From Prolixibacteraceae bacterium (GTDB taxonomy: Bacteria; Bacteroidota; Bacteroidia; Bacteroidales; Prolixibacteraceae): a stretch of 39,640 bases of DNA. The DNA lies in the NCBI GenBank assembly GCA_027858715.1, contig JAQICD010000161.1, positions 1-39,640 of the forward strand, in the 5' to 3' direction. This document shows positions 14,931 through 37,572 of the stretch, in pieces (position 1 is the first letter of the stretch; every line of letters starts with the position of its first letter). Made by a program: the position numbers and the translations under genes. The notes under the pieces are model-generated. The model was given only the letters and a program-made list of their open reading frames with translations, was not told where the DNA came from and ran no database searches.

Positions 14931-17846
14931 TCAAAAAGTAAACGAAATATTAAAAAGAAAATCAGTTTTATAAGGATTTGTTTGCTCATTAAACAAATAG
15001 GTAGAACGAAATCCAATTTCTAATGGAGCAATAAAACGCAGCACATGCAGGTCGGATGTTAGCTCAACACCAGTCGATTGCATTTGACCGCTGTACACAT
15101 AATTGGTCTGGCCATCGGTTGAAGTACCTGAATATTCTGCCATGTCGAAAAACAGCTTAGCCTTAAACCTTTTAAAGTACAACCAACGCCCAAGGTTTAT
15201 ATCGGGATACCAAAGTGGCAACTGATAATCGAAAGCAATGGTTGCAAGCTCGTTATTGAGCACCGATTGATATCCGCGAGGATAACGGATCCTATCACTG
15301 AAAATATATCGTCCATTTTGCTTTGTTTGGTAGCCAGTGTAAACCGACAGACCATGATTGGGTAAAAATCCGGGCAAATAAAGCCAACCCGAAGCCGAAA
15401 TTAACGACCCAAAATCGACAGCTCCAGGTAATGATTTCTGGTAAGTGATGTCGGCAATTACACCAAAGTTGGGTAACAAGTCCTGTTGCGATGATTTCAG
15501 AATGTGATATGCATAAACCCCAACATCTAAGGCATGGTATAAACCTTTCGGGTAATTATCCGGCTGGTTCTTTATGTTTGCAATATTATTGAGCCAGTAA
15601 TTCAGGCGAGGACGCAGCAAACGATAATATCTGCCCTTACTGAAATTTATGGGTATGTACATTTGTGCCGACATGCCAGTATGATTCCAGTTAAAGTATT
15701 GTTTTATCGTATCGGTTCTTACCACTTGTTCCGAGTTGTTTAAATATTGGTTAATCTGCCAGTAAGACGATTCGCGTGCACCGTTAGTGATTTCGAGATT
15801 AAAAACAGGATACCACCCCATGTATTTAAAATTCATAAAGAATTCACCTTCTTTGGTATCGGGTTTATAGCGATATCCACCAGCAAACTCCGCAGTACTC
15901 AGCATATTCTGACTGAAAAATGAAACTCCCGGATTAACAGTATAACCGTATGGGTCGATAGCCATAGGTGCCCAGCTGTGTATATTAATCAGATTCCGGA
16001 CAGACTCGTATTTTTCAGGTCTATAATCGTTTGTCGTTTCTGTGTTAAATTGTAAAACGCCGTTTTCCTGACTTGAAAGTGCCTGTGCAATTGGAAAATA
16101 ATTTTTAATTTTATCGATATTTGCCGGAGTAAATTCCAGTGAATCAACCGATACACTCCCCGGCTTAAATCCATTGGCTGTATAAAAACTGAAAGTCAGT
16201 TCGTTATTCCGAAACGATGGTGCATCGATACCAAAACGGGTATTTATCACCTTAAAAAATTGTTTCGTTTTCAAATTAACAGCGAATAAATTATCGTTTT
16301 CATTTTCGGCACAAATAAAAAACAACGTGTCGTTATGCACAACAGGATCCGAAAGTTCATTCCCACAATAAGGCAAAATGTATCGAAATTTATCATCGTC
16401 GGGCAAAAATTCAGCAATGGCTTTTTGATTGTTTTCCAGTAAAACCAAAAACAATGAAAAGCCATCATCAGCCCATGAAGGATTCATGGGATACGAACTG
16501 TCGGGAGCTTCGGTACGTTTAATTATTTCGCCGGTTTCGGTATCAATAAAAACGATATAAAAACGATATAAGTTATCGGCTTCAACTGCTGCAATTGTTT
16601 TATAATCGGGCGAAATAACGGGGGCAAACATTTTTGAATCAAACTTAAATTCCATAAGTTTTTTGCTTTCAATGTTGAATATTCGCATTAACGATTTGTC
16701 GGCGTGCTCCCAGCGCTTGTCGGGCAGATGTTCGGTCCATACAATATATTTACCGCGTACCGATGCAGATGATTTAAAAATTGCACCGGGGGTAAATAGT
16801 ACTTTCTCTTGTTCATTTTTATTAAACGATACAAACCGAGGCACATCTTTTAACGATGTACGATAAGCTACATATGTTGAATCGTTGATTTTGCTCACAT
16901 AGCGATAATTAACATATGCACTTGAACTACTGATAATTGTATCAAACCGACTTGCATTTGTTTCCAAATTAGCTTGTTCCCAGCGTGTTTCAAGAGTTGA
17001 AAATACTGCGTTATACAATTGTACTTTATTCATGTCGGTTTCAGCTTTCAACCCTTTGTCGAATGCTGTAAACGATAAAGGTTTTTGAGCAACAGTGGAT
17101 AAAACATTGTTCCACAAATCTTTTCCGTATTCTACCCTCGATTGTCCAACCATAAAATAACCCAGTTGATAATAATTTGGCACATGATGTTTGTAGGAAC
17201 CGAGATAAGCTTTATCGTATGAGTACCTGCCTTTTTCTACTATTAATGCTTTCATTTCTCGGTGAAAGCCAGGAAACCGACCACGACCACTTGTGCTTAA
17301 CGCAGTTTCGGTTGATACAGCATCGCCCTCGATAAACCAGAATGGCAGATAAGCTGCGGTTAGCAGTGCCGCTGCATGTTCGCCAAATAACCACCGTAAT
17401 AATTTAGGCATCTCCGATTCAAGCTTGTTTAGCTGCACCATATGTCGGTACTCGTGTATGGCCAGTTGCTCAAGCCAGTCTTGTGCATATATTTCCTGAT
17501 GTGGTGTGGTGTACATTTCGATGCGGCTTGGTGCCCAACCCAGAAAGGCATTCGATTTAACTGTTTCGGTATGTAGAATTACGGAAACCTTTTTCGGCTT
17601 TTGATTTAACGAAATGCCTGTAAACTTATACGACTGGCTTAACAAATCAGCAACTTCAAGCGCCTTATCTTCAAAATCTTCGGGGTAAATAACTTCAAAA
17701 TTATCCGTTTCAATTTTTTTCCATGTAATCCCACGGCGCTCCTGCCCATTGTTGAAATATTGTGTCCTTCCAACAAGCGTTACGAACAAAAACACAACGA
17801 GCAAAACAAGTCGGCTCGGAGTATTCATTTTGGGTAATTCAATCAT
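14931..17846 (-). CDS. exported HExxH peptidase-like / beta-propeller / outer-membrane barrel protein
   Basis: About 971 residues. An N-terminal signal sequence (RLVLLVVFLFVTLVG) precedes a peptidase-MA-like domain with the zinc motif HEYRH (His131, Glu132, His135 counted from the ATG at 17846) and a downstream WFIEGDA (Glu173) in the place of the third ligand of gluzincins. The middle (about 280-620) shows repeated strand blocks with WTEHLP, SPDYKTIAAVE and PSWADDGFSLFLVL, like TolB/PD40 propeller blades. The last ~340 residues are amphipathic strands ending in FLFNISFTF, with a C-terminal Phe as in outer-membrane barrels. Start: ATG 17846 or 17828 (MNTPSRL) are both possible; upstream residues in frame are not signal-like. 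Catalytic activity is inferred from the metal motif. Confidence 0.75.
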   Translation of the reverse strand: MIELPKMNTPSRLVLLVVFLFVTLVGRTQYFNNGQERRGITWKKIETDNFEVIYPEDFEDKALEVADLLSQSYKFTGISLNQKPKKVSVILHTETVKSNAFLGWAPSRIEMYTTPHQEIYAQDWLEQLAIHEYRHMVQLNKLESEMPKLLRWLFGEHAAALLTAAYLPFWFIEGDAVSTETALSTSGRGRFPGFHREMKALIVEKGRYSYDKAYLGSYKHHVPNYYQLGYFMVGQSRVEYGKDLWNNVLSTVAQKPLSFTAFDKGLKAETDMNKVQLYNAVFSTLETRWEQANLETNASRFDTIISSSSAYVNYRYVSKINDSTYVAYRTSLKDVPRFVSFNKNEQEKVLFTPGAIFKSSASVRGKYIVWTEHLPDKRWEHADKSLMRIFNIESKKLMEFKFDSKMFAPVISPDYKTIAAVEADNLYRFYIVFIDTETGEIIKRTEAPDSSYPMNPSWADDGFSLFLVLLENNQKAIAEFLPDDDKFRYILPYCGNELSDPVVHNDTLFFICAENENDNLFAVNLKTKQFFKVINTRFGIDAPSFRNNELTFSFYTANGFKPGSVSVDSLEFTPANIDKIKNYFPIAQALSSQENGVLQFNTETTNDYRPEKYESVRNLINIHSWAPMAIDPYGYTVNPGVSFFSQNMLSTAEFAGGYRYKPDTKEGEFFMNFKYMGWYPVFNLEITNGARESSYWQINQYLNNSEQVVRTDTIKQYFNWNHTGMSAQMYIPINFSKGRYYRLLRPRLNYWLNNIANIKNQPDNYPKGLYHALDVGVYAYHILKSSQQDLLPNFGVIADITYQKSLPGAVDFGSLISASGWLYLPGFLPNHGLSVYTGYQTKQNGRYIFSDRIRYPRGYQSVLNNELATIAFDYQLPLWYPDINLGRWLYFKRFKAKLFFDMAEYSGTSTDGQTNYVYSGQMQSTGVELTSDLHVLRFIAPLEIGFRSTYLFNEQTNPYKTDFLFNISFTF

Positions 17847-17949
17847 TATTTTTTCTAATTTGAGATAAATATTTGCGAAATATACAAATTGAAGCAAACA
17901 TGATGCCGATTATACCATAAATGTTTCTCCATAATTGCCGTGCATTTTC

Positions 17950-20167: not shown

Positions 20168-21205
20168 ATGAAACAGAACATTAAAATAATGATGTTTATT
20201 GTTGCCTATGTTTTGGTCGCACTTAACGGAAATAGTCAGCCGGTAAAAAAAATTTATTACGGTTGGTCCTTAAGCGATGTATCGAAGCTGGAAATTGAAA
20301 ATAAATTTGGCACCATTTATTTTCATGAAACAACTACCGATTCTGTAACCATCGAAGCTACTTTTGATATCGATAATTTATCGAAAAATAATGCTGAATA
20401 CCTGGCCAATCAAGTAATCTTCGACATAAAGAAAAGCGGGCAAATTGTTTTTTCTAAAACAAGCTTTACTGATAATTTTAAAACAAGTCAGGATTTTGAA
20501 ATTATTTTCACCATACGAATACCCAAAAATTTGGAGCTGAAAATAAACAACAGTTATGGAGATGTGTACTTGCCAGATATTACAAAGAATGCTACAATTA
20601 ACATTGAATATGGCAATTTACAGGCTGGCAACATCAACACAGGCAGTGATTACACGAATATTTCAGTAAAATACGGCAAGATATCGTTTAATAACGCGCA
20701 AAAACTTGAAGCACAAATACATTACGGAGAATTGACTTGCACAAAAATTGACGATGCAATTATCGAATCTCAGTATTCTATTGTCAAAATAGATACAACT
20801 AACAAAATTACTATAAGTTCGAATTTTGATGACATCAACATTCGGCAGACTAATAATCTTGAAATAACTTCGAACTACAGCCGTTTTGCAATTGAAAAAA
20901 TTGTTGAGTCGTTGCAAATAAAAATGAAACATGGTAATTTCATAGCAAATGCTGTATCTGAATCATTTAAAGATATAAAAATAGAAAACATTTATGGCGA
21001 TATGTATTTACAAATGCCCGCCGGAATTTCCTATTTCATTGATAGTGAAACATATTACAGCGATTTAAAATTTCCTGACGGAATAATTATCAATCAGAAT
21101 ATCACCAAAGATTTCATAAGAGCAAAAACCAAAATCGGTAACGATGAGACCCAGTCAAGAGTTCAGATAAAATCGAGATTTGGAAGTGTTCATCTCACAA
21201 AATAA
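20168..21205 (+). CDS. secreted DUF4097-like repeat protein, probable beta-solenoid
   Basis: A 345-residue protein with a signal peptide (cleavage near NGNSQ-P, residue 24). From about residue 120 the chain repeats a short motif: an aromatic (or His), often Gly, then alternating residues, at 130, 148, 169, 186, 203, 220, 237, 255, 276, 297 and 338, with earlier related copies (F47). Examples are NSYGDVYL, IEYGNLQA, VKYGKISF, IHYGELTC and NIYGDMYL. Spacing of 17-21 residues is what a beta-solenoid coil needs. This fits the DUF4097/adhesin-head family seen as secreted proteins in Bacteroidota. No enzyme motif. It begins 12 bp after the nucleotide-sugar dehydrogenase and 8 bp before the thioredoxin-like gene. 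Fold is inferred; function unknown. Confidence 0.7.
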   Translation: MKQNIKIMMFIVAYVLVALNGNSQPVKKIYYGWSLSDVSKLEIENKFGTIYFHETTTDSVTIEATFDIDNLSKNNAEYLANQVIFDIKKSGQIVFSKTSFTDNFKTSQDFEIIFTIRIPKNLELKINNSYGDVYLPDITKNATINIEYGNLQAGNINTGSDYTNISVKYGKISFNNAQKLEAQIHYGELTCTKIDDAIIESQYSIVKIDTTNKITISSNFDDINIRQTNNLEITSNYSRFAIEKIVESLQIKMKHGNFIANAVSESFKDIKIENIYGDMYLQMPAGISYFIDSETYYSDLKFPDGIIINQNITKDFIRAKTKIGNDETQSRVQIKSRFGSVHLTK

Positions 21206-24894: not shown

Positions 24895-26838
24895 TTAAAA
24901 ATTATAAACTGCCCCAATGGTCAAAAACTGCTTAACCTGAAGGCGGGTTCCTCTTTGTTCCACACCATCAGCATCTTCCCATTTCGACTCAACTCCTTTA
25001 TCATAAATAAAGTGAAAGTTTATTTGAGTAGTAACAAACTGGTTAACCTCAAAATCGATTGATGTTTCAGTATCAAAATCGGGAATTTTGATAAACTGCC
25101 ACTCCCCATCTTTGCTCCCCAAATTTAAGAATACACTGTTTTTGGTTCGGATATTTATGTTTTCGTATATTTTTTTCGAATAATTCAACCGACCGGTTAT
25201 ACCCATTCGGCTTTTTCGGGTTTTACCCTCATCGATACCATAACGAGTTTCATTAACGCGCGGATTGGTGACAAAAGTAGTTTTTAACGATAAAGGTGAA
25301 AGAAATATCGATAAATCTTTATTCGGTTTAAAGTCGAAACCTCCCGAGAATGTAAGATAGGCAGGCGAAAGCAAAGCCGATTTGTAAACTTCGGGATCAT
25401 TATTGTCACCATCTCTGATTAACTGAGTTTTAAAGTTTGCTTCGCCCGAATAATACCATTCTTTAAAAGCTGAAAAACCAAAACGGGAGTTAATTTCAAA
25501 ATTATCGGAGTTTTTATTGAATGGCTCATCTTCATCTTCACCAAAAGAATATATGAATCCCAGCTTTGCATCGAGGCTGTTTTCCCACTTTAGCTTGTTT
25601 TTTGAATAATTTGCCGAATAAGTAAGGCTCGATAAACTGTTCATCGACGACTTACCCCCTTTCGACCAGTATTCGTTGATAAATGTTTCTGTTATTCCGG
25701 TATATACTTTCCCCCGGGTTGACCATGGAATTAATACCGGAGTTCGATTTTTTACTTCTTTCAGTCCCTGATCGACCGCAACAATGGTTTGAATCTTTTC
25801 AACATCCATTCGCTGACGTTGTGTTAGGCGAGACAAGTTAACCGTTTCGTCAACCAAGATACGAATGCTGTGTTTATTGAGATTCTCGATTCGAATTCCG
25901 ATAGAATCGTTTTGCCTGTTTTTCAGCCATATCCACTCGAACCAAATTTCATCGTTTTGCATCCTGAGGATGGTCGAATCGTTGCGAAGATTATAAACGG
26001 ATAGTTCGTACGGTATGCGGTTTGCATAAGTTACCAACGATTTCACAATTTTTTCATACTGCTCGTTGGCAAGTTTTGTCTGAGTAGTGTTGTAACGGGT
26101 TAATGCTTTTTCGTTATCCCGGTTTATCGACTCGGTATATTGCTGTTGTAACGAGTCAATTATGCTTTGACGATAGTTAGTACGAAAATGCAATGAAACA
26201 GAATCTCTGTATGAGTCAATAATCGAATCGTTGTAGGCTCTTCTTTTTCCCTCGAGAAAGGCGGCAACAATACTGTCGGCTTCTTTAGCTCTTCGGGAAC
26301 TGTGACTCGATTCTGCCACCATAAGAATTAAAGAATCGGGTATTTCAACAATCGATTCAGTAATCAATCTTTCGGTTTCAGACATCGATACAATAGGTAA
26401 TTCAGAATAGCCACCCAGGTATTCATCTTCGGGTATCATTATCGATTCAAGAATCATATCATTAATCACCTCCTGCTCAATGGCGTTGAGCTGCCTTGCC
26501 ACTTCCAGTGAATCGACATAACCGGGTACTGCATTTTTATCTGAGATATCGTTAATATTGCGAACAATAAACTTATCGGTACTATCGCCAAAATCAATCA
26601 GATTATTAATAAGCGAATCAGCCGGAGAATTTTCTATATACTGAACCAACTCAATCAATTGGTGATACGATTCGGCATCAACAGGTTTCCATTCGTCTGA
26701 AAACAAGTAAGATTTAATGGTTTCCAGTTGGGATTTGATAGTATCCGAAACCTGACGTTCGTTTACCGATTTACCATTCGAAACAACACTAATTAACAAT
26801 AAAAGAATGAGCGTCAAACTTTTGTACATATTCATCAT
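24895..26838 (-). CDS. DUF3078 domain protein, exported, probable outer-membrane barrel end
   Basis: A 647-residue protein with a signal peptide (LTLILLLLISVVSNGK). Residues 30-350 are acidic, helix-prone and unusually rich in DSI/DSL tripeptides (SIVAAFLEGKRRAYNDSIID, YRDSVSL, INRDNEKAL). From about residue 375 the DUF3078 signature appears: NEYWSKGGKSSMNSLSSL, KLKWENSLDAKLGF, and a run of amphipathic strands to the end (FLTIGAVYNF), consistent with an outer-membrane barrel. DUF3078 has no assigned function. It lies 37 bp after the CYTH gene and is coupled to the SRPBCC gene. Start codons ATG at 26838 and 26835 are adjacent and cannot be told apart. Confidence 0.82.
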   Translation of the reverse strand: MMNMYKSLTLILLLLISVVSNGKSVNERQVSDTIKSQLETIKSYLFSDEWKPVDAESYHQLIELVQYIENSPADSLINNLIDFGDSTDKFIVRNINDISDKNAVPGYVDSLEVARQLNAIEQEVINDMILESIMIPEDEYLGGYSELPIVSMSETERLITESIVEIPDSLILMVAESSHSSRRAKEADSIVAAFLEGKRRAYNDSIIDSYRDSVSLHFRTNYRQSIIDSLQQQYTESINRDNEKALTRYNTTQTKLANEQYEKIVKSLVTYANRIPYELSVYNLRNDSTILRMQNDEIWFEWIWLKNRQNDSIGIRIENLNKHSIRILVDETVNLSRLTQRQRMDVEKIQTIVAVDQGLKEVKNRTPVLIPWSTRGKVYTGITETFINEYWSKGGKSSMNSLSSLTYSANYSKNKLKWENSLDAKLGFIYSFGEDEDEPFNKNSDNFEINSRFGFSAFKEWYYSGEANFKTQLIRDGDNNDPEVYKSALLSPAYLTFSGGFDFKPNKDLSIFLSPLSLKTTFVTNPRVNETRYGIDEGKTRKSRMGITGRLNYSKKIYENINIRTKNSVFLNLGSKDGEWQFIKIPDFDTETSIDFEVNQFVTTQINFHFIYDKGVESKWEDADGVEQRGTRLQVKQFLTIGAVYNF

Positions 26839-27465: not shown

Positions 27466-28860
27466 TTAAGAATGGTACTCTTTTACATTAAAAGAGCGGG
27501 TAATCATTTTTCGGGCTTCGTCGTACGACGAAACTACTCCGTCGGCCACAGCCTGAATCATCAAATTTCCTATGGCTGCTCCTTCGACTGGACCTGCCAC
27601 CACATTTTTCCCGGTATAATTTGCAGTAAGCGCACATAGCATAGCCGACTTTGACCCGCCACCGGTAATATGCACTGTTGAGAAAGGTTGTCCGCGAAGG
27701 GTTTCCAAATCGTTCAATGTTTTCTTGAACGAAGTGGCCAGACTCTCGTATGCACAGCGATAATATTCAGCTGGAGATGACAATCCAGATTCTATTTTAT
27801 CAGCCAAATGCGCATCAAACGCTTCCTTCATGTTTTTAGGATTGAAAAAAGCAGGATCGTCGGGGTTCACTAACACTTTAGATGGTGTAGCCTGTTGAGC
27901 CATTTCGTCAATTTCGGAATATGAATGAATGCTACCAAAGGCCACTCTCAGTTGCTGTATAAGCCAGAGTCCCATTATATTTTTCAACGGGCGAAAACGA
28001 CCGTCTGCAGCAAGTTCATTGGTTATACCCATATCGTAAGCCTCTCGGCTCAACAACGGTTTATCCGACAACATACCTGCAATGCACCAGGTGCCGGTTG
28101 CTATAAATGCAAAGTTTTCATCGGTATAAGGTATGGCAGCTACCGCACATGCAGTATCATGTCCGGCTACAGTAACAACATTTGCAGAATAAGCACAACA
28201 ATTTTGTAGTTCGCCAAGATTAGTGCCGGGCATAACCGGCGTTCCGTTCAATTTATTTTCGATGCCCAAATAACCTGTAATTTGCGTGTCCCATGTACGC
28301 GATTCAACATTCAACATTTGTGTTGTGCCCGAAAGTGTTAGTTCATTGGCTCGTTTTCCCGAAAAATAATAGTTGATATAATCGGCTGTGAAAAGAATGG
28401 AATGACAAGCCTTTAATACCGGTTTGTTTTTAATACTCAAAAATTGATACAACGAGTTAAAAATATTGTAATTGATGCCTGTTTTAACAAAAGTTTCGTA
28501 ACCATCAAGCACCTGGCTGTTCCACATTTCGTCCATACCACTTGTTCGCTTATCGCGATAAGCAACAGGATTTTCCATTGGTTTTCCAGCTGTATTGAGC
28601 AATACAAAATCGACTCCCCACGAATCGGTGCCGATACTAACTATCGGCACCTTCGATTCGCGAAAAGCTTTAACTAACAATGATTTTATGCCGTTGGTTA
28701 TCCGCTGTAAGTTCCAACGGTCGTGACCATCAATCGTTTCAATAGTATTATCGAAACGGCCAATTTCATTAATCACCAACCTATCAGAAAATATTCCCTG
28801 AACAACACGGATACTTCCGGCGCCCATATCAATAGCAAGGTACGATGTGGGTTTTTTCAT
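27466..28860 (-). CDS. FGGY-family sugar kinase (rhamnulokinase/L-fuculokinase-like)
   Basis: A 464-residue cytoplasmic kinase that phosphorylates a ketose. The N-terminal phosphate loop (LAIDMGAGSIRVVQG) and SIGTDSWGVDFVLL resemble RhaB. The central FIATGTWCIAG segment and C-terminal VHITGGGSKSAMLCALTANYTGKN complete the ATP site. The gene starts 6 bp after the isomerase gene, so the pair forms an operon. In Bacteroides the L-fuculose kinase belongs to this RhaB-like branch, so L-fuculose is the likeliest substrate given the neighbour, though L-rhamnulose or D-ribulose cannot be ruled out. Downstream, 125 bp separate it from the CYTH gene. Confidence 0.85.
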   Translation of the reverse strand: MKKPTSYLAIDMGAGSIRVVQGIFSDRLVINEIGRFDNTIETIDGHDRWNLQRITNGIKSLLVKAFRESKVPIVSIGTDSWGVDFVLLNTAGKPMENPVAYRDKRTSGMDEMWNSQVLDGYETFVKTGINYNIFNSLYQFLSIKNKPVLKACHSILFTADYINYYFSGKRANELTLSGTTQMLNVESRTWDTQITGYLGIENKLNGTPVMPGTNLGELQNCCAYSANVVTVAGHDTACAVAAIPYTDENFAFIATGTWCIAGMLSDKPLLSREAYDMGITNELAADGRFRPLKNIMGLWLIQQLRVAFGSIHSYSEIDEMAQQATPSKVLVNPDDPAFFNPKNMKEAFDAHLADKIESGLSSPAEYYRCAYESLATSFKKTLNDLETLRGQPFSTVHITGGGSKSAMLCALTANYTGKNVVAGPVEGAAIGNLMIQAVADGVVSSYDEARKMITRSFNVKEYHS

Positions 28861-28866
28861 ATCATT

Positions 28867-30588
28867 TTACTTTTTAGCTCTTAATTTTTTAGTTTCATAT
28901 TCGCCCCCATTAATTAAATACATTAATGGTTCAGGGCGGTCAACACCTTCGATAAAGGCAGGTCGCTTTTGCCAGGGTGCAACCGATACAACATTGGCCA
29001 AATCCATCCAGTACTGAAGTACGGCAGGCTTAAGCCCCCATGTCATATGGAAATGGTTTGCCGGCGCATATTGCTTATATTCAAGCATTGATGCATATTT
29101 TGGTACAATCCAGCTGTGAGGCCATGTTACATTCGAGCTGTTGGCCACAAAACCGGCGAGTTTTTCAGGAAGGTCAACCGTTTGGGCTTCGTCCCATACC
29201 AGGCTAAACATGCCATTAAGGTGACTATAAGTCAATCGGCTAGCAATACCTTCGATACCTCCTGGCGAAACAAACTCTACGCTGTTTCCGCCGCCAGGGA
29301 AATAACCAGGGTCAGCACCAGGCATTGATACTTTGTTCAAAATTTCTTTTACCGATTGTCCGGGCATTGCCGCCCAGTTCAAACTTGCTGAACCTGAGTT
29401 GTCGCCATCAACAATACCTTTCATAGCCCACAATTCATCACCTTTAACATTAATACCAAGACTTTTGGCTTTAGCAACCAACTCGGCAGGTTCCCACACT
29501 TTACGGAAATCCATAAACAGCGGTGGATTACCACCGGTAAGCCAGGTTTTGAACAACATTGTAAGTGTTCCCTGCATATCTGCCTCGGTACCAAACGGGA
29601 TTACAGGCTTTTCGCCGTCATGATCGAATGTTGAATTGAATAACGATTCGGCCATATCACAAATTGGAAGTGTAATTCCACGATGGTCGCTACCCCACTC
29701 AAGCTGATTCATAAATGCACCTCCAACGGCGTTCAGTTCTTTCAGCAAGTCGCGAATAATCAAATACATCGACAGCGACTGGTTTAGTCTTTCACTACCG
29801 TCGGTTTGCGAAGTATCGATGCTTTTAAGATTAGAGTCCAGCCAGTTGCGTAATGCTTTCAGTTCTTCTTTGTCGTAATCTTTTTTCTGCAACTTGTCTG
29901 ACAAAAGCTTCATGTCGAGACGGCTGATTTCAACACCAAATGTCTCGCGTGTAGCATTGATATGGGACAAGGCTGTTTCCATACCCATTGAATCGTGCCC
30001 GAAACAAACCACCCTGCGGCCTTTTAGTCCAACATAAGTGACGGCAGCATAGGTCCAGTCTGTAACACTTTGCAATGTTTCAGGGCTGATATTTGGCTTC
30101 ATGCCCGTATCGTCCCATGTGCCCACGTTAATATGCGAAATTCGCCCCTGCTGAGCAAAAGCACCATTTACAGCATGAGCAAATACAACCCCAGGTTTCG
30201 GAGCGCTGTTTCCACAAGTGATATTTAAGGGAGTATCTTTGGGAAAATGTGCCATCAGGCTCATTAGCGATAATTGTGGGAAAGCCCAGGTATCGGGTGT
30301 ACAAACGATAATATTTACCCCTTCGCTCTTAAACTGTTTGGCAACCAAATCGGCTTCCGGTTCGCCATCAATTAGTACAGGCGACCAAACAACTTTAGGA
30401 ATTTGCCCGTTGGGCATTTTTACGCTTTGCTGCAAATGATTTGCGATCATTTCAACAATATTAACTGTACGTTGGCGTGCTTCTTCATCGATTCGTGGAT
30501 CGCCTGCTGCACAAACCCCAATAGTTACATCAATACTACGTATGTCTGAATTCGAATTGGTAATTCTTTTAGCTTTGTTCGTTTCCAT
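28867..30588 (-). CDS. fucI: L-fucose isomerase family protein
   Basis: A 573-residue isomerase; E. coli FucI has 591. It converts L-fucose to L-fuculose (the same enzymes often accept D-arabinose) in the cytoplasm, using Mn2+. The E. coli metal ligands Glu337, Asp361 and His528 appear to correspond to Glu335 (PFGTEADMQG), Asp360 (LFMDFRKVWEP) and His512 (APANHFHMTWG). The VVCFGHDSMGMETALSHI and FDHDGEKP blocks also match. The N-terminus TIGVCAAGDPRIDEEARQ is of the Bacteroidota subtype. It is transcribed divergently from an AraC regulator and precedes the FGGY kinase by 6 bp. Exact sugar not proven. Confidence 0.83.
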   Translation of the reverse strand: METNKAKRITNSNSDIRSIDVTIGVCAAGDPRIDEEARQRTVNIVEMIANHLQQSVKMPNGQIPKVVWSPVLIDGEPEADLVAKQFKSEGVNIIVCTPDTWAFPQLSLMSLMAHFPKDTPLNITCGNSAPKPGVVFAHAVNGAFAQQGRISHINVGTWDDTGMKPNISPETLQSVTDWTYAAVTYVGLKGRRVVCFGHDSMGMETALSHINATRETFGVEISRLDMKLLSDKLQKKDYDKEELKALRNWLDSNLKSIDTSQTDGSERLNQSLSMYLIIRDLLKELNAVGGAFMNQLEWGSDHRGITLPICDMAESLFNSTFDHDGEKPVIPFGTEADMQGTLTMLFKTWLTGGNPPLFMDFRKVWEPAELVAKAKSLGINVKGDELWAMKGIVDGDNSGSASLNWAAMPGQSVKEILNKVSMPGADPGYFPGGGNSVEFVSPGGIEGIASRLTYSHLNGMFSLVWDEAQTVDLPEKLAGFVANSSNVTWPHSWIVPKYASMLEYKQYAPANHFHMTWGLKPAVLQYWMDLANVVSVAPWQKRPAFIEGVDRPEPLMYLINGGEYETKKLRAKK

Positions 30589-34305: not shown

Positions 34306-35910
34306 TCAAACAATACTATCATTTTTCATTTTAAAACTGGCAACAAAAAGGTTCAAAAGCATTAAAACAAACATAAACAATGATACACGGGCGATAAAAT
34401 CGCCCGTTTTTGCGTAAAAAGTCAGGGTTTTATTTCGATTTAGTGTAGCAGTTTCAACTCCTGAAACCCACCACTGCGTTTTTGTTATAACCTCGCCACG
34501 CTGATTGATAAATCCGCTTATTCCGGTATTTGCAGTCCGGGCAATACTCCGTCTTAACGAAACAGCCTGTAATCGTGCAAAAGAAAAATGTTGAAGATAA
34601 CCTGGCGAATTTTTCCACCAACCATCGTTGGTGATAACAAATAACACCTCGGCACCATTTCTCACAAAACCACTAAGGTAATTACCAAACACCGATTCGT
34701 AACATATTGGCACACCAAAATGAATACCTTCATGTTCAAACACCACCGTGGCTGAATCGGTAGCTAGCGAGCCTGTTGTTCCGCCAAGGTCAATTACCAG
34801 GTTATCTAAAAACCCCAGATAGCGTTCAAACGGAATCTGTTCGACCCCAGCAACCAGTTTCGATTTATGATACATTTCGACAGGCTTGTTCGTTTTCAGC
34901 ATTAATGCCGAATTGTAAGCATCGAAAATCATCGAGCTATCAGCATTGTAGCGCGCTGTGGGTGTGGCATCTTCCATTTGATTGTAATACCTGTAAGTCA
35001 TTGCTCCAGTGATAAAAGCAGCATCTTTATCATTTTCGGTCAAAAACTGTTTAATCATCCGAATCCCCAGCTCATTATCCACCCAGTTTTGATTTACATT
35101 ATGAAGCGCCGTTTCGGGTCCAATATAAAAGTCCACTCCCCGATCGGCTACTGTTGCCGATAAATCAAGCATACGTTTGTATTGTTCGTGAAAAGGCATT
35201 TCGTCAAACTTCTCATTATATGGGTCAATGTTGGGCTGAACAACAGCCACTTTTACCGGTGCTTCATTTTCGTTATAGCTACAAAAACGAGCCAGCGAAT
35301 AAGTAACAGGCACCAAAATCACAATCAACAAAAGCAACACACGTCCTAAAAACGAGCCGCGTACATGGTACAGATAAGATTTTACTAGCTGCCAGATGAA
35401 AAAGTTGCTTATTAGCACCCAAAGGCTGCCACCCATAACACCTGTAAACTCATACCATTGAATCAGCTTCACATCGTTGGCAAAACCATTGCCCAGAGTA
35501 AGCCATGGCCAAGCCATTTCCCAGTTAAAGTGCAAGTATTCGAACGACAACCATGCAGCGATAAGAAAAATTACAGCGAAACCACTATTTTTTGTGCGGT
35601 GAGCGAAGTGAAAAAGCAACCAGACCAACGACATTAGGAACGAATTAGTAACAATAGCAAAAATTGCCCCGGCAGGGGTTGCATGCCATATCCACCATGT
35701 GGTAAAAGCATTCCAAAACAACATTATTCCAAAGGCATAATACCAAAATGTCAGAGACGTAAAAGTGCTTTTATTTCGTGTAAAATAATTTTCGAGAAAA
35801 AAAACAGGCACCAGGGCAAACCAAAGCACAAAACCACTGCCGCCGAGCCAGGGAAGGCTAAGTAACAAGCCCGATAATAATGATAGTAAAATTAAAACCG
35901 AACGCATCAT
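34306..35910 (-). CDS. lnt: apolipoprotein N-acyltransferase
   Basis: A 534-residue inner-membrane enzyme that adds the third acyl chain to lipoproteins. About six hydrophobic segments occupy residues 1-208 (RSVLILLSLLSGLLLSLP, SLWVLISNFFIWQLV, VLLLLIVILVPVTY), then a nitrilase-type domain facing the periplasm. The catalytic triad is Glu266 (YIGPETALH), Lys349 (YHKSKLVAGVEQIPFE) and Cys403 (PICYESVFG). One C-terminal helix follows. The start ATG overlaps the previous gene's TGA (ATGA), so translation is coupled to the metallophosphatase. The 3' end contains a rightward terminator on the opposite strand. Confidence 0.93.
   Translation of the reverse strand: MMRSVLILLSLLSGLLLSLPWLGGSGFVLWFALVPVFFLENYFTRNKSTFTSLTFWYYAFGIMLFWNAFTTWWIWHATPAGAIFAIVTNSFLMSLVWLLFHFAHRTKNSGFAVIFLIAAWLSFEYLHFNWEMAWPWLTLGNGFANDVKLIQWYEFTGVMGGSLWVLISNFFIWQLVKSYLYHVRGSFLGRVLLLLIVILVPVTYSLARFCSYNENEAPVKVAVVQPNIDPYNEKFDEMPFHEQYKRMLDLSATVADRGVDFYIGPETALHNVNQNWVDNELGIRMIKQFLTENDKDAAFITGAMTYRYYNQMEDATPTARYNADSSMIFDAYNSALMLKTNKPVEMYHKSKLVAGVEQIPFERYLGFLDNLVIDLGGTTGSLATDSATVVFEHEGIHFGVPICYESVFGNYLSGFVRNGAEVLFVITNDGWWKNSPGYLQHFSFARLQAVSLRRSIARTANTGISGFINQRGEVITKTQWWVSGVETATLNRNKTLTFYAKTGDFIARVSLFMFVLMLLNLFVASFKMKNDSIV
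34387..34411 (+). terminator. intrinsic terminator of yebC, embedded in lnt
   Basis: A perfect 8-bp stem ACGGGCGA / TCGCCCGT (34387-34394 and 34400-34407) with a 5-base loop TAAAA is followed by TTTTTG. The T-run is only on the rightward strand, so it would end transcripts coming from yebC. The DNA is also coding for lnt residues about 502-508 on the other strand. Leftward reading has no T-run. Confidence 0.85.
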
Positions 35911-36818
35911 CCGCCAATACGTTTATTAGGTGATAGGTCAAGGTGTGTTTTCTTCTTATGCTCAAAAAAGAAATCGAGCTGCCCCAACATCAACGATGCC
36001 CAGCCAACCTGGTTTACAACAACCGGACGTTTGTTTTTATTTGAGAACTCAGCAGGAGAATCGAGGAAAGTATGCGTATGTCCGCCTAATATCAAATCGG
36101 TTTCGTAGGTTTCGCGAGCCAGTATATTATCAGATATTTTTGGTGAATCGTACTGATATCCCAGGTGTGAGAGGCAAATGATGAAGTCGCATTTTTCCTC
36201 GTACCTGAGGTAATCTTCAATTTCGAGCGCAACATCAAGAGGTTCATTGTATTTTGTGTTTCCACATACGCTTTTACCTGCCAACCCTTGCAGTTCAATT
36301 CCCAAACCATACAATCCAATACGAATTCCTTTTCGTTCGATAACAAGATGTTTTTTAATCATCCCATCGATTGGGGTATCGCTAAAATCGTAGTTCGATG
36401 ATATAATAGGAAAGCCGGCATACTGCATTACATTTCGAAAACTTTCAAGGCCACTGTCAAACTCATGATTTCCGATGGTGGTGGCATCGTAGCCCATTTC
36501 GGTCATCAGTTTTAGAACCACTTCGCCTTTAAAAAAATTATAATACGGCGTTCCCTGCGAAAAGTCGCCGCTATCGAGCAACAGCAATTCGGGGTTGTAT
36601 TTACGAAGTTGTTTTACGTAAGCCGAAATGCGGTTCATACCACCTTTTCCGGGATATTTAGGATCGTTATCGGGAAAAGGCTCAAAATGACAATGTAAAT
36701 CATTTGTATGCAAAATTGTTAATCGTGTAACGTTTGTATTTTGTGCCAACGATGGCAAGGCATACAAACCGGCACCCGCTATTAAGGTATTACGTATAAA
36801 TTGTCTTCTATTCAACAT
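35907..36818 (-). CDS. metallophosphoesterase, catalytic half of a 5'-nucleotidase, Tat-type signal
   Basis: A 303-residue exported enzyme. The N-terminus NRRQFIRNTLIAGAGLYALPSLAQ has the twin-arginine pattern RRxFIR. The calcineurin-like motifs follow: HTNDLHCH (Asp40, His42), LLLDSGDFSQGT, TIGNHEFD, CLSHLGY and GGHTHTFL, as in the N-terminal domain of UshA-type 5'-nucleotidases. The nucleotide-binding C-terminal domain is absent here and encoded by the preceding gene, which it overlaps by 11 bp. Start: ATG 36818 (MLNRRQF) is chosen because it puts the twin arginines at the end; the frame extends to 36866 with no signal-like residues. It overlaps lnt by 4 bp. Likely periplasmic nucleotide or phosphate-ester hydrolysis. 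Confidence 0.88.
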   Translation of the reverse strand: MLNRRQFIRNTLIAGAGLYALPSLAQNTNVTRLTILHTNDLHCHFEPFPDNDPKYPGKGGMNRISAYVKQLRKYNPELLLLDSGDFSQGTPYYNFFKGEVVLKLMTEMGYDATTIGNHEFDSGLESFRNVMQYAGFPIISSNYDFSDTPIDGMIKKHLVIERKGIRIGLYGLGIELQGLAGKSVCGNTKYNEPLDVALEIEDYLRYEEKCDFIICLSHLGYQYDSPKISDNILARETYETDLILGGHTHTFLDSPAEFSNKNKRPVVVNQVGWASLMLGQLDFFFEHKKKTHLDLSPNKRIGG

Positions 36819-37572
36819 AGTAAATTCTCCCATCCGTTTTGGCATCAATTGTTTTGCCATTTTCATTCATGGTTGTAAAACCATCAATAATTACATCCCT
36901 TATTTTCAAACCTGTATCAATGCGTTCGGAAGCCCAGGTCAGAACTTTCATCCCGTCGCCACCATTGGCAATATAATCGTTTGTAACCAGCCAGTATTGC
37001 TTGTTCTTATCAACCTTTACGCCCTGCACTTTTATATCAATAGCTTTATCGGCCATCATGCCAAAAGTGATACCGGCAACCCCCTCGCCTTTTCGCGTCG
37101 CAATATAATCGGCAAGACTGATTATCTGTTCGCCTGTTAGCAAAACCATTACCAGTTCATTTTCAAAAGGCATAATTTCGTAGGCATTTCGAATTGTTAT
37201 TTCACCCTTGGGTACAGAAGCCCTGATACCTCCGTGATTAAACAACGCAATTTCAGGTTTAATATTCAAATTATTATCTATAGAATATTGTTTGGCACTC
37301 GATAAAATCAAATCAGTCAAGAAGTTACTAAGCGGACTCTCAGGTCGGTAACTGGCCATTCCGTTATTTGATTTGGCTATAAACTCCGACAATTTCTCTT
37401 CGATTTCGTTTTTGTAAGGTTTAAGTATATCGTCAAAGTTTTGGTCGCTTATAGAGTCGGATACATCGCTGATTGGCAGGTTTTTATAATCGTAAGTAGC
37501 TGTTTGTGTAAGCGTACCGCACGATACAAGCAGAAATGCAGCAATAATGGATATTAACAATCGAATGTTCAT
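36808..37572 (-). CDS. 5'-nucleotidase C-terminal domain lipoprotein
   Basis: A 254-residue protein with a lipoprotein signal (LLISIIAAFLLVSC, lipidated Cys18). The body matches the 5_nucleotid_C domain: SPLSNFLTDLIL, IALFNHGGIRASVPKGEITIRNAYEIMPFENELVMVLLTG, and WLVTNDYIANGGDGM. In UshA this domain binds the substrate base. It is the complementary half to the metallophosphoesterase encoded next, so the two likely act as one enzyme assembled from a membrane-attached and a Tat-exported part. First gene of the cluster with lnt. Two full -7 matches (minus strand, 37630-37623 and 37643-37636) lie upstream of the ATG. Confidence 0.88.
   Translation of the reverse strand: MNIRLLISIIAAFLLVSCGTLTQTATYDYKNLPISDVSDSISDQNFDDILKPYKNEIEEKLSEFIAKSNNGMASYRPESPLSNFLTDLILSSAKQYSIDNNLNIKPEIALFNHGGIRASVPKGEITIRNAYEIMPFENELVMVLLTGEQIISLADYIATRKGEGVAGITFGMMADKAIDIKVQGVKVDKNKQYWLVTNDYIANGGDGMKVLTWASERIDTGLKIRDVIIDGFTTMNENGKTIDAKTDGRIYYVE

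Follow-up and report, generated by a model that had tools for sequence, protein, structure and literature searches.

The Omp85 superfamily is defined by its barrel, and POTRA domains are usual among its members (PMC4104836). One of the subfamilies defined by Heinz and Lithgow in 2014 is WD40-Omp85, which carries a TolB-like propeller and whose function is given as unknown in the accessible text of that survey (PMC4104836); a 2024 paper on PlpD, in its accessible part, still lists WD40-like Omp85 proteins as poorly characterised (PMC11116518). The survey also has a 'Metallo' or 'metalloprotease' group, which according to the accessible text rests on PF00149 (PMC4104836), a family that Pfam names Calcineurin-like phosphoesterase, and the survey's main text contains no word that starts with 'peptidase'. 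Proteolysis at the outer membrane is represented in Escherichia coli by BepA, a member of the M48 family (PMC7950410) described as a zinc peptidase that works in the periplasm on a barrel protein of the outer membrane (PMC8423444). Recent structures are reported to set outer-membrane assembly in Bacteroidota apart from the E. coli model, with the presence of BamB there called unclear (PMC12578637). BAM complexes of Bacteroidota were the subject of two studies in 2025; in their accessible parts these show no subunit that combines a peptidase, a propeller and a barrel, and one of them describes BamI, a separate protein with a propeller that belongs to the complex's extracellular part.

The window analysed here is a stretch of 39,640 nucleotides from a Prolixibacteraceae bacterium (contig JAQICD010000161.1), and on its minus strand, where all features described below also lie unless stated otherwise, it holds a gene for a protein of 971 aa (14931..17846, from an ATG, based on the open frame and the AlphaFold2 model; a longer frame from a TTG start, 14931-17897, is likewise open). 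Like WD40-Omp85 proteins as described in the accessible text of PMC4104836, this protein has a TolB-like propeller before an Omp85 barrel and an apparently non-POTRA N-terminus; unlike them, which are given there as propeller plus barrel only, it has a zinc-peptidase-like domain before the propeller. It shares with PlpD, a patatin-Omp85 protein, an enzyme domain that precedes an Omp85 barrel within the same chain (PMC11116518, accessible part), the difference being that PlpD has a patatin-like domain and POTRA where the window protein has the zinc-peptidase-like domain and propeller. TolB and BamB resemble it in their TolB-like propeller and in a likely periplasmic setting, but in the window protein the propeller is fused to a peptidase domain and a barrel. 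The new element is a peptidase-bearing WD40-Omp85 protein that is widespread and, as far as literature searches show, unstudied: searches of the open literature by title and start of abstract found no description of this peptidase domain on an Omp85 barrel.

Domain architecture and the zinc site

An initial annotation had read from this polypeptide a signal sequence, a gluzincin-like zinc site, TolB-like blades and an outer-membrane barrel ending in Phe. When the structure was predicted, all three domains were modelled, and the full-length AlphaFold2 model (input: an 80-sequence alignment, A2) reached a mean pLDDT of 92.2 and a pTM of 0.89, with a helix at residues 11-25, mixed alpha/beta structure to about residue 297, 23 strands over residues 312-566 and 16 long strands over residues 622-967. 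The signal peptide (residues ~1-28, 17763..17846) is seen as a hydrophobic N-terminus in which we read no lipobox Cys, coinciding with the model helix and with a consensus of the relatives that ends AQ at this place. It is followed by the peptidase-like domain (residues 30-297, 16956..17759), the TolB-like propeller (residues 298-576, 16119..16955; 23 model strands, so about six blades) and the Omp85-type 16-stranded barrel (residues 622-967, 14946..15983; from AlphaFold2 models and structure searches). The peptidase-like domain is the best-conserved part, with 26 positions invariant in the 80 sequences of A2, compared with 3 in the propeller and 8 in the barrel, and with a mean share of the commonest residue of 0.592, compared with 0.428 and 0.440. 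We regard it as almost certain that the chain is built in this way, from a signal peptide, a zinc-peptidase-like domain, a TolB-like propeller and an Omp85-type barrel.

Against Pfam, the window protein matches no family at E 10, hence the PF13485 cut-off is not reached, and its sole NCBIfam match is TolB (TIGR02800, residues 405-477, E 0.0057, 15.6 bits where the cut-off is 343). This agrees with the earlier expectation that annotations would reduce the protein to a TolB-like one, and the naming gap, in which Pfam gives no family and NCBIfam a weak TolB only, is correctable. The blades themselves are upheld by the model, in which residues 304-571 take the TolB fold; the top row of the propeller structure search was a modelled TolB (Z 22.7), and the best crystal structure was 2w8b (Z 22.3 over 240 residues at 3.0 A). 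A PDB search with the single window sequence returned just two chains, both unrelated and with E near 1.

Zinc peptidases of clan MA(E), the gluzincins, are defined by HExxH and a third ligand, a Glu in a downstream EGxA helix, with the ligands meeting in the fold. The window protein has HEYRH at residues 131-135 (17442..17456), where H131 and H135 are the presumed zinc ligands and E132 the presumed general base, and EGDA at residues 173-176 (17319..17330), where E173 is the presumed third ligand. On whether these residues lie far apart in the predicted fold, which the initial annotation named as a refutation, the model places HExxH on a helix spanning residues 124-145 and the third-ligand glutamate on another spanning 169-182, and both motifs align with those of a collagenase in the profile match described below. 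The motif pair is beyond chance: it arose in 1 case in 20,000 shuffles of the window protein, and HExxH alone in 327 cases. Both motifs are present in all 59 loci of the first set (L001-L059: the window gene and 58 relatives, all 58 of which carry them, taken from the top-scoring matches), and HExxH is found in 80 of 80 loci kept from a profile scan, in which EGDA is present by construction because these loci were found through an EGDA pattern. Distant relatives likewise keep HExxH and EGxA in 20 of 20 chosen cases, at a spacing of 31 to 60 residues. Across A2, H131, E132, H135 and E173 occur in 80 of 80 sequences (E173 by construction for most), as do R134, Q138, the whole EGDA stretch (173-176), E180, GRGR (187-190), S217, Y226 and G229. 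A separate alignment of 45 hand-chosen peptidase domains (A5), whose members share as little as 15% identity with the window protein, leaves H131, E132, H135, P168, E173, G174, A176, R188, Y226 and G229 invariant; R188 (17283..17285) is thus found in 45 of 45 sequences, and Y226 (17169..17171) coincides with the YxxG stretch of collagenase. A5 does without locus L186, since the frame there starts near the motif.

Searched against the PDB, the A5 profile matched collagenase ColG (7z5u, E 4.4e-5; 4are, E 1e-4; 2y3u, E 1.3e-4) and ColT (4ar8, E 0.13), and the two remaining matches were tyrosine aminotransferases (E 0.08 and 1.5). The ColG match spans profile positions 93-260 of 275, with HExxH, EGxA and YxxG in register, and it is because of this profile match that a peptidase fold is proposed; structure searches with the full-length model gave lists filled by propellers, and Peptidase_M9 was matched in 1 of the 20 distant relatives (best E 0.035). 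The window protein resembles both Peptidase_MA_2 (PF13485) and ColG in having HExxH, EGxA and YxxG in the same order, and differs from them in that its chain continues into a propeller and barrel and in its own signature of HExRH, EGDAV and GRGR. Judged from these sequence features, it probably carries a gluzincin-type zinc site and would bind zinc there, and we predict with considerable confidence that the peptidase is catalytically active.

The Omp85-type barrel

The barrel was modelled a second time from residues 600-971 alone (pLDDT 93.1), and 16 long strands are seen in both models. Since all 50 matches listed by Foldseek (best E 3.6e-6) and all 50 listed by VIA are Omp85 proteins or complexes, among them BAM, TamA, FhaC, CdiB, SAM and TOC, the modelled barrel is of the Omp85 kind. 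The best VIA match is a chain of the Flavobacterium johnsoniae BAM complex (9n2d_A, Z 18.7 over 292 residues at 4.1 A), and the Omp85-like (BamA kind) identity of the barrel, as seen in the models, is a point absent from the initial annotation. That annotation was right that the 16-stranded barrel of the window protein ends in Phe; of the 75 A2 sequences that exceed 920 aa, 20 end in F, 18 in L, 16 in Y, 7 in I and 14 in another residue, and a terminal Phe is thus no rule for the family. The barrel also contains PRGY at residues 856-859 (15270..15281); of the 80 sequences of A2, 77 have the R and 79 the G, and the residue after them is Y in 39, F in 10, I in 10 and M in 7. We take this to be, in name and role, the Omp85 loop-6 RG(F/Y) motif, and in the profile alignment the RG of the window family falls, position by position, on the Omp85 RGY.

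At the level of sequence profiles, the link of the window barrel to Omp85 runs via sister subfamilies, not directly. The window gene has no match to PF01103 at E up to 10, and a direct comparison of the window barrel profile with the Omp85 profile gave a probability of 0.5% (0.6% in another run; reversed control 0.4%). The A2 barrel is linked to that of the 20 distant relatives (A3) at 99.0% (reversed control 0.1%), and A3 to Omp85 at 96.7% (0.2%); by a second route, A2 is linked to the A6 barrel at 49.2% (E 1.7e-4; reversed control 0.3%) and A6 to Omp85 at 99.3% (0.2%). For one locus (L171), no frame was obtained for the Omp85 profile. No POTRA family appears in the Pfam lists shown for the window protein, A3 and nine sister proteins; model residues 30-576 are read as peptidase and propeller, which leaves 45 residues before the barrel. 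The source genome contains three further Omp85 matches, one of which, of 881 aa, is presumably BamA.

Relatives, distribution and genomic setting

In the window's family, a single-sequence search at E 0.001 found the protein in 95 of 100 genomes (its own included), and in the phylum it gave matches in 91 of 296 genomes, many of them matched in parts only; the family is widespread in Bacteroidota. Scanning contigs with the single protein found nothing, and scanning them with a profile gave at least 588 relatives, of which 80 were kept, partly from the same genomes as the first 59 loci (L060 and L004, for example). From these sets we drew A1 (45 of the 59 loci), A2 (from which L133, of 710 aa, was left out) and A4 (without L108 and L120), and A3 was chosen from the single-sequence phylum search. 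Among the 45 members of A1, PD40 was matched in 14 at Pfam E 0.5, with PF13485 and PF01103 absent from the 25 of 39 Pfam families shown, and in NCBIfam the TolB model matched 39 members and HExxH metalloprotease models matched 3 and 2 members. For A3 at Pfam E 0.1, the counts were 18 of 20 for PD40, 11 of 20 for Peptidase_MA_2 and 3 of 20 for Omp85, and A3 aligns with A2 by hhalign over 891 columns at 100%.

The A5 peptidase profile has matches in 41 of 61 phylum genomes, at up to six places per genome. Five or six such places were counted in each of G133, G112, G102, G107 and G129, most of the frames being ~930-1150 aa long, and the superfamily has therefore expanded. Ten sister frames were chosen for a double match to the A5 profile and PF01103, and nine were used, L207 being set aside since the longest frame there ran along the wrong strand. 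All nine, which were picked for their PF01103 match, have HExxH and EGxA, and at Pfam E 1e-5 they exceed the curated cut-offs for PD40 (9/9), Omp85 (9/9) and Peptidase_MA_2 (8/9). They align with both A2 (hhalign probability 99.9, 869 columns) and A3 (100%, 920 columns); thus, the three-part architecture is visible in the sisters, and is conserved but invisible to Pfam in the window protein.

Not every copy has an intact site. HExxH is lost in 2 of 12 N-terminus-bearing frames of the extra loci, and a third has DGDA and lacks Y226, all three coming from one genus (g12), whose genomes contribute as many as four copies each to the loci retrieved. A full-length copy (L195, genome G043) has lost HExxH, E173 and Y226 and kept the barrel RG; a copy split by a stop (L200, G011) has lost HExxH and Y226 and kept EGDA, with KG replacing RG; and the second copy of L196 (G031), the one with DGDA, has kept the barrel RG. 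On the question raised in the initial annotation of whether homologues lack the site residues, the answer is therefore divided, the residues being kept in 80 of 80 sequences of A2 but lost in these few paralogues. The losses mean that the family is not uniformly catalytic and that the scaffold can persist without catalysis; because intact copies are present in the same genomes, the site is nevertheless the rule, accompanied by decayed or repurposed duplicates. The altered copies are possible pseudo-proteases retaining the barrel.

Strict coupling of the family to type IX secretion was considered and rejected. SprA_N (PF14349) is found in 228 of 296 phylum genomes, and one family (f6) has SprA but lacks the peptidase domain, the A5 profile being unmatched in four of its five genomes scanned and giving in the fifth a weak match in a 284-aa frame; two genomes (G101, G368) show the reverse, with a window-type protein present and SprA_N not found. 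Another family (f18) is absent among the SprA-positive rows; its matches to the A3 profile are weak, and the A5 profile is unmatched in 12 of its 13 genomes scanned, the exception being G135 (E 4.2e-16, 1005-aa frame).

The gene was single-copy in its own genome by both whole-protein and peptidase-domain profile searches of an assembly that is 82.3% complete in 279 contigs. Neither neighbour shares its strand: a nitroreductase gene converges on it from one side and a run led by an oxidoreductase diverges from it on the other. A promoter and terminator scan around it showed nothing above chance level. Clustering the flanks of 80 loci and the window, many of them shortened by contig ends, gave dihydroorotate dehydrogenase, its partner subunit and an HTH protein as the top clusters (22, 21 and 20 of 81 loci), all three present in the window too; the remaining clusters each reach at most 17 of 81 loci, and the annotated ones are mostly metabolic or unrelated genes. 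Across these 81 loci there was no constant partner gene and none hinting at a substrate, and a search for plasmid-borne copies found none. Elsewhere in the window, a 647-aa protein (24895-26838, minus) has its Pfam match (DUF3078) limited to residues 386-474 at E 1e-8; an FGGY sugar kinase adjoins an L-fucose isomerase (27466-30588, minus), of which just two N-terminal domains are matched by Pfam at E 1e-8; an apolipoprotein N-acyltransferase gene has a four-base overlap with a calcineurin-like phosphoesterase gene (34306-36866, minus); and a 345-aa frame after a UDP-sugar dehydrogenase (20168-21205, plus) is without a Pfam match at E 0.001.

Proposed function and its alternatives

We read the window protein, at a probability of about 0.55, as a single-chain outer-membrane metallopeptidase that acts on the periplasmic side and probably cuts envelope proteins. 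The signal peptide would take the chain across the inner membrane, and the C-terminal Omp85-type barrel would insert in the outer membrane, the peptidase and propeller remaining in the periplasm just beneath it. H131, H135 and E173 would bind zinc and E132 would activate water, with the TolB-like propeller docking or gating the substrate and the barrel serving as anchor and perhaps making contact with further barrel proteins. With 16 strands placed after the soluble part, the barrel should have both its ends inside, and the soluble part would therefore be periplasmic; from the even strand number and the domain order, with the PlpD precedent in agreement, we consider this orientation likely. 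The likeliest job would be to cleave proteins of the envelope on the inner side of the outer membrane, for instance to process lipoproteins or outer-membrane proteins or to control their quality.

An alternative reading is an assembly or translocation factor like BamA or TamA, in which the barrel would handle clients, the propeller would replace BamB and the peptidase would clear failures. The Omp85 barrel itself, its loop-6 RG motif (kept in nearly all of A2, and in L195 despite the lost peptidase site) and the description of WD40-Omp85 as reminiscent of a BamA-BamB fusion (PMC4104836, accessible text) are consistent with such a factor, yet we think it unlikely, given that no POTRA domain is recognised, that the genome has three other Omp85 matches including the presumed BamA, that the peptidase is better conserved than the barrel and propeller, and that the split copy in L200 has KG rather than RG. 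A bolder form of this reading, also unlikely, is a one-chain Bacteroidota machine for both assembly and quality control, in which a client-engaging Omp85 barrel and a BamB/TolB-like propeller would be joined to a peptidase that destroys or trims failed clients.

We find it improbable that the protein is autotransporter-like, with the peptidase and propeller carried to the cell surface to act on outside proteins by digesting or binding them. Among solved peptidases a collagenase comes nearest, and collagenase is a secreted enzyme. PlpD was formerly read in this way as well, but its enzyme domain has been shown to be periplasmic (both in the accessible part of PMC11116518); in addition, a 16-stranded barrel behind a soluble part would by default place that part inside, and presence in 95 of 100 family genomes would be less expected of a variable surface enzyme than of a protein with a housekeeping role. 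A non-cutting metal- or peptide-binding scaffold, with the propeller as the working part, is suggested by the two g12 copies without HExxH and the altered L196 copy but is very improbable, as H131, E132, H135, E173, R188 and Y226 stand in 80 of 80 sequences of A2 and the altered copies lost several site residues together in genomes that keep intact ones.

For the single-chain metallopeptidase that we prefer, a role in the processing or quality control of outer-membrane proteins in particular is a tentative proposal, made by analogy. The likeness to BepA is one of role only: BepA is not known to be barrel-anchored, and the window protein would be tethered by a barrel of its own. Taken as a whole, the interpretation in the initial annotation is supported, with proteolysis and membrane location standing as predictions. 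An Omp85-type family that joins a propeller and a probable protease in one chain, and that occurs in nearly all genomes of the window's family (95 of 100), may bear on how the outer membrane is assembled in Bacteroidota.
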